From Dermabacteraceae bacterium TAE3-ERU5 (GTDB lineage: Bacteria > Actinomycetota > Actinomycetes > Actinomycetales > Dermabacteraceae), in assembly GCA_019218375.1 (NCBI GenBank), contig JAHUUK010000001.1, positions 1-64,000 on the forward strand: DNA of 64,000 nucleotides, written 5' to 3'. This document shows, in pieces, positions 17,465 to 53,249 of the stretch (position 1 is its first letter; every line of letters begins with the position of its first letter). The translations under genes were made by a program, and so were the position numbers. A model generated the notes under the pieces. The model was not told the origin of the DNA, searched no databases, and was given only the letters and a program-made list of their open reading frames with translations.

Positions 17465-17845
17465 TCAGGCGGCGGGAGCGTTAACGTCCTTGGGAAGGGC
17501 CTTCTTGGCTACCTCTACCAGGGCGGCGAACGCAGCTGCGTCGTTGACGGCCAGTTCGGCCAGCATGCGGCGGTCTACGCCAACACCCGCGAGGGACAGG
17601 CCCTGCATGAAGCGGTTGTAGGTCATGCCGTTAGCGCGGGCCGCGGCGTTGATGCGCTGGATCCAAAGGCGACGGAACTCGCCCTTGCGCACCTTACGGT
17701 CGCGGTAGTTGTAGGTCATCGAGTGAAGGATCTGTTCCTTCGCCTTGCGGTAAAGGCGCGAACGCTGACCGCGGTAGCCGCTGGCCTGTTCAAGAATTTC
17801 TCGACGCTTCTTCTGGGCGTTTACTGCCCGCTTCACGCGTGCCAC
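17465..17845 (-). CDS. rplT: 50S ribosomal protein L20
   Basis: 126-residue basic ribosomal protein that binds 23S rRNA domain II early in 50S assembly. Recognised from [15 protein letters not shown] at the N-terminus and the conserved [20 protein letters not shown]. It has a short alanine-rich C-terminal extension. AAAGGAGA precedes the ATG. It ends the infC-rpmI-rplT run and is followed two bases later by the methyltransferase gene. Confidence 0.97.
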
Positions 17846-17935: not shown

Positions 17936-18130
17936 TCAGCGACCGAGGAGACGCTTTACGCGCTTGGTGTCAGCCTTGGAAACGCTGGTGTCGTTGCCCA
18001 GGCGGCGCTTGCGAGTGGAGGACTTGTGCTCCAGGAGGTGGCGAGCGTTCGCCTTTTCGCGCATCAGCTTGCCGGACCCGGTCACGCGCACGCGCTTCTT
18101 GGTGCCACTGTGAGTCTTGTTCTTCGGCAT
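17936..18130 (-). CDS. rpmI: 50S ribosomal protein L35
   Basis: 64-residue basic protein with the family start [21 protein letters not shown] and the conserved core [13 protein letters not shown]. The start is ATG 18130, supported by GAAGGAGA seven bases upstream; the frame stays open further upstream but that part is unlike L35. Middle gene of the infC-rpmI-rplT operon; a CCCCC/GGGGG hairpin lies in the gap to infC. Confidence 0.96.
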
Positions 18131-18216: not shown

Positions 18217-18831
18217 CTATGCGTCCTGCGTGGTTTCGGCCGCCTGGGGGGCCTCTTCCTCGCGACGCTTCGCCTTTTCAGCGTCAGACTTGCGCTTGCG
18301 CGCTTCGGCTCGCGCCTGGGCCTTCTTCTTGGTGGGGCCGATGACCATCACCATGTTGCGGCCGTCCTGGCGCGGGTGGGATTCCACGAAGCCGTGCTCC
18401 GCGACGTCCTCAGCGAGCCGGTTAAGCAGCTTAATACCCATTTCGGGGCGGGACTGCTCGCGTCCACGGAAACGGATGGTGATCTTCACCTTGTCTCCGC
18501 CGGACAGGAAGCGTTCGATGTGACCACGCTTGGTTTCGTAGTCGTGCTTGTCAATCTTCAGGTTCATGCGGATCTCCTTGAGATCCGTGTTGGCCTGATT
18601 CTTGCGTGCCTCGCGTGCCTTCATGGCGGCTTCGTACTTGTACTTGCCGTAGTCCATGAGGCGCGCTACCGGCGGGTGCGCACCCGGGGCAACCTCTACC
18701 AGGTCAAGATCCGCTTCGCCGGCAAGGCGCAGCGCGTCCTCGAGGCGGACGATCCCTACCTGTTCCCCGTTGGGGCCCACAAGACGGACCTCCGGTACGC
18801 GGATTCGGTCGTTAATGCGTGGTTCGCTGAT
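18217..18831 (-). CDS. infC: Translation initiation factor IF-3
   Basis: Binds the 30S subunit, prevents 50S joining and rejects non-canonical start codons. 204 residues: N-domain (about 1-80, with [14 protein letters not shown] and [10 protein letters not shown]), linker, C-domain ([13 protein letters not shown]) and a basic Lys/Glu-rich tail. The N-terminal family sequence continues upstream of the first ATG/GTG and begins ISEPRIND at codon ATC (18831-18829), with AGGTGAGGAG six bases before it. No ATG, GTG or TTG fits, so initiation at ATC is inferred; an unusual start codon is the known basis of IF-3 autoregulation in E. coli. A long structured leader with an attenuator and a tiny upstream frame precedes it. 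Confidence 0.95.
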
Positions 18832-18841
18832 GGGTGGCTCC

Positions 18842-18865
18842 TCACCTAGTTTGCTGTCTGAACAT
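18842..18865 (-). CDS. Putative seven-codon leader peptide ahead of infC
   Basis: ATG at 18865 opens a frame encoding MFRQQTR and stops at TGA 18844-18842. A consensus Shine-Dalgarno GGAGG (18878-18874) lies eight bases before the ATG, within the 3' arm of the attenuator hairpin. The TGA lies inside the infC Shine-Dalgarno (GGTGAGGAG). The geometry suggests coupling of leader translation to infC, but such a short frame could arise by chance; no coding statistics are possible. Confidence 0.35.
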
Positions 18866-18895
18866 AAGAAAAGCCTCCGCGTCTAAGCGAAGGCC
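18866..18895 (-). terminator. Attenuator-like terminator hairpin in the infC leader
   Basis: On the minus strand GCCTTCGC (18894-18887), loop TTAGAC and GCGGAGGC (18880-18873) form an 8-bp stem with one G-U pair, followed by TTTTCTT. It lies only 35 bases before the infC start and would end transcription before the operon if formed. It also contains the GGAGG serving the putative leader peptide. Confidence 0.6.
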
Positions 18896-19085
18896 TATCA
18901 GTGCGTGCCGCAGCAAAACCGGGCACCCGGATTAAATCCGGTGCACTTACCCGCAGCCCTCGAGCTACAAGGTGGGAGAGACTCCACTTAAACGGGAACC
19001 GTTATGTTCCAGGGATCAACGATAGCAGGGTTGCGGATTTCCCGCAAGAGGGGATCTAACCATCGTTTATCCCCTTTGCTAGTCT
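18896..19085 (-). other. Structured 5' leader of infC-rpmI-rplT
   Basis: Hairpins in order upstream of the attenuator: GGGGAT/ATCCCC (19050-19055, 19069-19074), TTGCGG/CCGCAA (19031-19036, 19042-19047), GGAAC/GTTCC (18995-18999, 19006-19010) and a long stem with one bulge (18923-18932, 18936-18944). The promoter is not certain: TTGCAT and GATAAA on the minus strand flank a 19-base spacer near 19070-19095. The region resembles ribosomal-protein leader attenuators in design. No known riboswitch consensus was recognised. Confidence 0.5.
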
Positions 19086-19174
19086 GCCTAATGCAAGCGT
19101 GCCGGGGAAAACCGGCCACTTAGATACCTCGATGGGGAAATTCTACGCTCCGTCGAGTCGGTCTGGAGCCACCA
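19086..19174 (+). other. Divergent gap before the ABC transporter operon
   Basis: Contains the upstream end of the infC leader on the minus strand and presumably the promoter of the transporter operon on the plus strand. A GGAG Shine-Dalgarno lies seven bases before the ATG at 19175. CCGG-GGAAAA-CCGG forms a small hairpin near 19103-19116. No clear plus-strand promoter was found. Confidence 0.3.
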
Positions 19175-19977
<803 letters not shown>

Positions 19978-53089: not shown

Positions 53090-53137
53090 CCGCTCCTCCT
53101 CAAGACTCACGATAGATAAATAGGTAGATATGCCAGT

Positions 53138-53223
53138 GATGCGAGATCAGATCCCTGCCGCTTCAGTCCCGCCACCGGGGAAGATGCGTCGGGGCTAAAG
53201 CGGTAGAGATCTCATCTCGCATC
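53138..53223 (-). repeat. Long stem-loop between mraZ and rsmH
   Basis: Arms of 28 bases (53138-53165 and 53196-53223) pair along their full length on the minus-strand RNA with 24 Watson-Crick pairs, two G-U pairs and two mismatches, around a 30-base loop. It begins 27 bases after the mraZ stop and ends 49 bases before rsmH. No T-run follows in the direction of transcription, so an RNA processing/stability element or pause is more likely than a terminator. Confidence 0.8.
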
Positions 53224-53249
53224 CGTTGTTGCCAACTGGCTGTTCAGTT

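Follow-up and report, generated by a model that had tools for sequence, protein, structure and literature searches.

The DNA upstream of infC in Dermabacteraceae bacterium TAE3-ERU5 probably encodes an unlisted L20-type leader RNA of Actinomycetota that works by attenuation of the infC-rpmI-rplT operon. The window analyzed here is a stretch of 64,000 nucleotides (assembly GCA_019218375.1, contig JAHUUK010000001.1, positions 1 to 64,000 of the forward strand). Within it, the region at 18842-18895 would form the 3'-terminal part of an approximately 180-nt leader RNA, which would control infC-rpmI-rplT through transcription attenuation. RNA synthesis would begin at about 19010-19016, and a conserved core, AAGUGGAG, would have two alternative partners. 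In the OFF state, the core would pair with its own downstream CUCC to give hairpin B beside hairpin C, the terminator at 18896-18871 would form, and polymerase would halt before infC. In the ON state, the core would pair with the 5' arm and loop of the terminator, so that no terminator would form and the operon would be transcribed. Free L20 would most likely bind the AA dimer and two G-C pairs of the B-C fold, shutting down its own operon when rRNA is short. The sequence support for this model is conservation, covariation of both folds, a promoter motif and genomic position, and we infer the direction of control, termination in cells and the ligand.

If the model is true, most of the actinomycetes examined place a central translation operon under the control of an RNA missing from Rfam 15. 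L20 would also gain a further, separately built RNA target, giving a testable case of the repeated origin of ribosomal leaders.

Genomic context of the leader

The operon and its leader lie on the minus strand in the order infC-rpmI-rplT. The first gene, infC (18217-18831; Pfam IF3_N and IF3_C), encodes IF3 and has an ATC start at 18831-18829. It is followed by rpmI (17936-18130; PF01632), encoding ribosomal protein L35, and last by rplT (17465-17845; PF00453), encoding ribosomal protein L20, the proposed ligand. On the other side of the infC leader, a divergent ABC-transporter gene starts at 19175.

An extended -10 promoter motif, TGCTATCGT, is found at 19019-19027 (minus strand), and transcription is predicted to start at about 19010-19016 on that strand. 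The general form of this motif, TGNTANNNT, is common before the core: it was present 10-140 nt 5' of the core in 82 of 96 non-redundant leaders, versus 4.1 expected from shuffles. The element is therefore probably transcribed whole. Folding of the leader placed hairpin A, GGAAC-AUAACG-GUUCC, at 18995-19010 (minus strand). By eye, and without a count, a hairpin of other sequence occupies that position in other clades. A second upstream frame at 19063-19016 (minus strand; 15 codons, with an AAAGGGG stretch before its ATG) was considered and rejected. It lies 5' of the predicted transcription start, and its ATG is replaced by CTG in L002, the sole other genome of the genus.

A terminator-like hairpin is conserved before infC

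On the minus strand, inspection of the infC leader gave the sequence AGGCCTTCGC-TTAGAC-GCGGAGGCTT, which is a hairpin at 18896-18871, followed by TTCTT. Together with its T-rich tail, this intrinsic-terminator-like hairpin spans 18866-18896. The sequence-only reading that first singled out this region had described an 8-bp stem; the hairpin itself is there, with a stem of 10 pairs counting G-T, 6 of them G-C. The other elements that it had named are likewise all present in the sequence. These are the T-rich tail, a GGAGG in the 3' arm (18874-18878, minus strand) eight bases 5' of an ATG, a seven-codon frame encoding MFRQQTR, and the TGA of that frame falling within the infC Shine-Dalgarno, GGTGAGGAG.

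We compared this leader with those of related genomes. The sequence-only reading had taken Actinomycetaceae as the relatives, which is probably wrong: the leader of G004, a genome in the same family as the window, is identical over 200 nt to that of NZ_CP027295.1 (Brachybacterium), a genus of Dermabacteraceae. IF3 was present in 57 of the 58 genomes from the search for relatives, plus 80 named loci, and 50 of the 57 infC-bearing relatives were used; the seven left out include the two most divergent, G038 and G054. The resulting infC upstream set of 130 regions, which includes 20 additional stretches, was aligned on the IF3 start. One entry (L031) is a duplicate of another (L021), the two coming from one genome. 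Most of the 130 upstream regions have a hairpin of the form GGCCTCCG...CGGGGGCC ahead of infC. By a scripted rule (energy at most -14 kcal/mol and at least 3 T around the hairpin end), a terminator-like hairpin precedes infC in 118 of the 129 leaders that carry the core described below, and 11 of the 129 are without one. The T-tail is poor in Brachybacterium leaders. Given that 118 of 129 leaders have such a hairpin and that folding of the 280-nt leader gives z = -3.65, we take the hairpin to be more than chance. Removal of the 11 leaders without a terminator by the rule, and of near-duplicates, left the 96 non-redundant leaders used throughout.

In many Micrococcales leaders, a stretch like GTTGC-GG(C/T)GGT could be seen by eye to recur right after the T tail. 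For some of these leaders a pseudoknot between this stretch and the terminator loop could be drawn, a suggestive pairing seen by eye in a few.

The conserved core and its own fold

The leaders share an upstream block consisting of GCAAGNGRAG, a loop of variable length and CUYCCACC, followed by a second hairpin with, in most cases, ACCYG/CRGGU as its outer helix. This core is found before infC by a strict pattern in 119 of 130 loci and by a looser pattern in 129 of 130; the remaining locus, L049, has no patterned core and was omitted from the looser-pattern set, and covariance model R1 nevertheless finds it.

In the window, the core, AAGUGGAG-UCU-CUCCC, occupies 18974-18989 (minus strand) and contains the AA dimer (18989-18988) and the consensus hairpin B, as indicated by model R1 and by pair counts over 100 leaders. 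The pairs of hairpin B are G18987-C18974, G18985-C18975, G18984-C18976, A18983-U18977 and G18982-C18978, with U18986 unpaired. Hairpin C, ACCUUGUAGC...GCUGCGGGU, follows at 18949-18973 (minus strand) and contains the adjacent G-C pairs C18972-G18950 and C18971-G18951. In the optimal fold computed for the window alone, GUGG and CCAC are paired in place of the consensus hairpin B.

Hairpin B shows a compensatory change, from GGAG/CUCC to GAAG/CUUC, in Janibacter-Phycicoccus-type leaders. The outer helix of hairpin C, a hairpin recognized through its changes between clades, goes from ACCCG/CGGGU to ACCUG/CAGGU in several Cellulomonas and to ACCCU/AGGGU in Demequina. Over 51 sequences, the ten pairs of the aptamer helices were paired in 97.6% of cells and had 18 double-sided changes versus 3.8 after shuffling, a figure that none of 500 shuffles reached. 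The model-based alignment, which took 100 of the 130 loci, was 96.1% paired with 27 double-sided changes versus 7.2 (0 of 500 shuffles reached 27); the leaders were chosen partly by the AAG and CCACC patterns, so that part of the invariance of the core is circular and the exact figures are biased. The lengths of the AAG-to-ACC stretch fall into all residues modulo 3 (47, 41 and 40 of 128), which speaks against coding.

The core can also pair with the terminator arm

Strand 1 of the putative antiterminator is GUUUAAGUGGAG (18993-18982, minus strand). Strand 2 is CUUCGCUUAGAC (18892-18881, minus strand), which corresponds to the 5' arm of the terminator plus its loop and emerged from duplex and covariation tests. 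All 12 of 12 positions pair between the two strands, 3 of them as G-U. The longer duplex between core and terminator arm in the window has an energy of -22.0 kcal/mol, and no other 19-nt stretch of the leader that was tested equals it. Core self-pairing and core-terminator pairing are mutually exclusive, which is how an attenuator that has an antiterminator is arranged.

Across the 96 leaders, duplexes with the leader's own partner averaged -19.29 kcal/mol versus -15.71 kcal/mol with exchanged partners, and 0 of 20000 permutations were as good; these partner permutations account for relatedness by thinning alone. Relative to shuffled arms, the mean z was -2.19, with 55% of leaders below -2. 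The core was the best-pairing window for the terminator arm in 36 of 96 leaders, and in 60 another window pairs as well. A second set gave a weaker antiterminator signal, with 192 of 20000 permutations equalling it, and overlaps in part with the first, since at least three of its loci (L133, L134 and L148) come from genomes already included. It consisted of 24 of 30 loci; the other 6 were dropped without a recognized terminator, the script having chosen the wrong hairpin in several.

The base N of AAGNG, which is unpaired in hairpin B, was examined separately in 95 of the 96 leaders (one gave no register), with the register set blind to N itself. In 76 of the 95 it has a pairing partner in the terminator arm, versus 54.8 expected, and none of 10000 permutations did as well. 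After thinning, the count was 50 of 65 versus 35.3 expected (again 0 of 10000). Where N is A, its partner is mostly T; C is found with G, and T with G or A.

The sequence-only reading had called the hairpin an attenuator, and this part of it probably holds. A terminator hairpin with a T tail is kept before infC across the class, and a competing pairing partner upstream covaries with it, weakly in the second set.

In computed folds of full length, the terminator was favored in 91 of 96 leaders by a mean of 8.8 kcal/mol, and in the window by 2.1 kcal/mol (-64.8 vs -62.7). In only 31 of 96 nascent RNAs, which still lack the 3' arm, did the antiterminator come within 2 kcal/mol of the best fold. 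Since the fold energies favor the terminator, the switch would need kinetics or factors. The same stability would suit a constitutive partial terminator with no sensor, fixing the ratio of leader RNA to operon RNA. We consider this very improbable, because a plain terminator has no use for a conserved core with a covarying fold, nor for covariation between an unpaired base of that core and the terminator arm.

The seven-codon frame appears to be incidental

The short frame at 18842-18865 (minus strand) reads ATG TTC AGA CAG CAA ACT AGG TGA, with its ATG at 18865-18863 and its TGA at 18844-18842. The sequence-only reading had proposed that it encodes a leader peptide: ribosomes would load at the freed GGAGG, translate MFRQQTR and be handed on to the weak ATC start of infC. 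In the window, the spacing and the stop-in-Shine-Dalgarno geometry are good, and in several relatives an ATG likewise stands eight bases past the arm. However, only 5 of 35 Dermabacteraceae leaders have a frame that ends inside the infC Shine-Dalgarno. This count began with 36 leaders, 35 of which have a recognized 3' arm (L111 was missed by the arm pattern, and L031 was dropped as a duplicate). Within the 35, the first start codon after the 3' arm is ATG in 15 and absent in 8; L003 and L114 have an ATG behind an earlier TTG, so it was not scored as the first start. The sole other genome of the genus has a near copy, MFGQQTR. In L004, L006 and L012 the frame also closes in the infC Shine-Dalgarno, with peptides unlike MFRQQTR.

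The 96 non-redundant leaders gave a similar result. A Shine-Dalgarno-like G-rich 5-mer is present in the 3' arm of 80, and a start codon follows 4-12 nt on in 58, but the frame stops before infC in 18 and inside the infC Shine-Dalgarno in 6, and the peptides are mostly dissimilar. A short frame conserved in a fixed place, as in leader-peptide attenuation, was thus found neither in the family nor in the non-redundant set. When the infC upstream regions of relatives are aligned, the stem is conserved and the short frame is not. Leader-peptide control is, in our judgment, highly unlikely, and on comparison of leaders the seven-codon frame looks like a by-product, probably incidental, with no conserved part.

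The hidden Shine-Dalgarno is a common feature of the 3' arm, as the 80 of 96 leaders indicate, but it is a consequence of pairing. The GGAGG repeats the GGAG of the core, since one and the same 5' arm is complementary both to the 3' arm and to the core AAGNGGAG. infC does begin with the weak ATC codon, which is not peculiar to this genome. ATC was found at 112 of 130 loci and ATT at 17, and the sole locus with neither at the aligned start (L105) has an ATC one codon upstream.

Five Arthrobacter-type leaders (L095, L106, L108, L110 and L124) contain, between the terminator and infC, a frame that opens with TTG and runs for 11-12 codons (LPVEYSSQPQEL and variants). Its stop codon begins 4 nt ahead of the ATT with which infC starts, which counts in favor of a translated leader and may be chance among close relatives.

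L20 as the candidate ligand

L20 is our best guess for the ligand because of the AA and G-C signature, because rplT is in the operon, and because in B. subtilis L20 and a terminator govern this operon as well. Established L20 leaders share an AA dimer and two consecutive G-C pairs, and the candidate put forward in Eckert 2020 itself has the AA dimer and G-C pairs with a helix between (Eckert 2020). In the window, an AA dimer and two G-C pairs separated by a helix lie before the L20-encoding operon. This is a short signature; 100 of 100 leaders carry the AA dimer, and the adjacent C-G pairs occur in 100 of 100 for one and 98 of 98 for the other (2 gaps), with hairpin B between, in a set that was pattern-selected and is therefore partly circular. 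In the genome's own 23S rRNA, AAGUGG occurs in a similar context, on one strand only and with no match for the partner strand, at what we take to be the L20 site.

The same switch could respond to IF3, L35 or another factor rather than L20. All three proteins are encoded downstream of the leader, and 129 of the 130 aligned loci start infC with ATC or ATT. In E. coli, IF3 limits its own synthesis through that kind of start codon. We nevertheless regard a ligand other than L20 as fairly unlikely, since the AA dimer and two consecutive G-C pairs that are near-invariant here are the published L20 signature. Also doubtful, and somewhat more so, is a reading in which a leader as old as the phylum Actinomycetota senses free IF3 (or L35) and ends transcription of the operon, its fold being unlike those of known infC leaders.

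An L20-responsive leader would have close counterparts. In B. subtilis, L20 binding stabilizes a rho-independent terminator in the leader of infC-rpmI-rplT (Babina 2018). The present leader resembles that L20 leader (RF00558) in lying 5' of infC in the same operon. Unlike it, the leader in the window has no RF00558 match and is built on a scaffold of two adjacent hairpins plus an antiterminator that uses the AAG core. RF00558-type RNA is narrowly distributed to Firmicutes (Babina 2018). L20 control in E. coli acts on translation, and the control in B. subtilis is likewise reviewed (PMC10931766). The AA dimer and two consecutive G-C pairs are also shared with the L20 leaders of Gammaproteobacteria and with a candidate from Deltaproteobacteria (Eckert 2020), the latter being the only lineage for which Table 1 of that paper lists L20. 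The helix between the AA and the G-C pairs is found in the Deltaproteobacteria candidate as it is in the actinomycete leader. The leaders in Eckert 2020 have a different scaffold and belong to a different lineage.

In Actinobacteria, almost no information on such control was available according to a 2021 paper on mycobacterial rpsO. The infC 5' UTR of M. tuberculosis is 326 nt long, with a UTR/CDS ratio that goes from 2.6 in exponential to 4.9 in stationary phase, and B. subtilis L20 control is cited as an analogy for it (Arnvig 2011). This UTR is long and abundant, and its ratio is what an attenuator would be expected to give. The M. tuberculosis infA and infC 5' UTRs resemble each other; the passages of Arnvig 2011 on the infC UTR align the two and give no structure, terminator or antiterminator.

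Distribution of the element

Model R1 matched the window at G000:C1:18939-18996 (E 6.5e-6), before infC, and this was the sole strong match in the genome. The next match (E 0.0196) was rejected as a second copy of the core, as it lies within a kinase-like ORF and is probably chance. In a survey of the class, R1 matched 247 of 296 genomes, representing 104 of 115 genera, at E <= 0.05, with about 15 chance matches expected; as read from the listing, 208 of the 296 genomes had a match with E below 0.001. For the best-scoring 30 loci, infC was directly downstream in 30 of 30. Some genomes of the class, such as G298 and G059, have 2-4 matches, the additional ones being weaker matches to the core model.

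A phylum-wide draw gave matches in 63 of 296 genomes, among them 25 of the 26 that belong to the class (misses inferred from listing order). Outside the class, 38 of 270 genomes matched, mostly with weak scores. We fetched 16 of these 38; in 4 (L166, L167, L171 and L172) the match is directly before infC, and in 12 it is elsewhere. The diverged cores of these four suggest that the element may be older than the class, perhaps as old as the phylum.

This candidate RNA is widespread in the class, absent from Rfam 15 and without a description in the literature searched. Rfam 15 gave no match up to E 5 in 18700-19200. Its search of 18 relatives yielded none over threshold and 6 sub-threshold matches, none of them a ribosomal-protein leader. 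RF00558 (L20_leader) had no match at E <= 0.001 in the genome itself; in controls, that model matched 4 of 14 genomes, B. subtilis among them, 2 of these over the cut-off. No title or abstract opening in our literature search described this RNA, and a term search found infC absent from the main text of Naville 2010, PMC13236596 and PMC3890552. Elsewhere in the window, at 53129-53228 (minus strand), mraW RNA (RF01746) was found above its gathering score; this RNA is known also from Corynebacterium glutamicum (PMC3890552).
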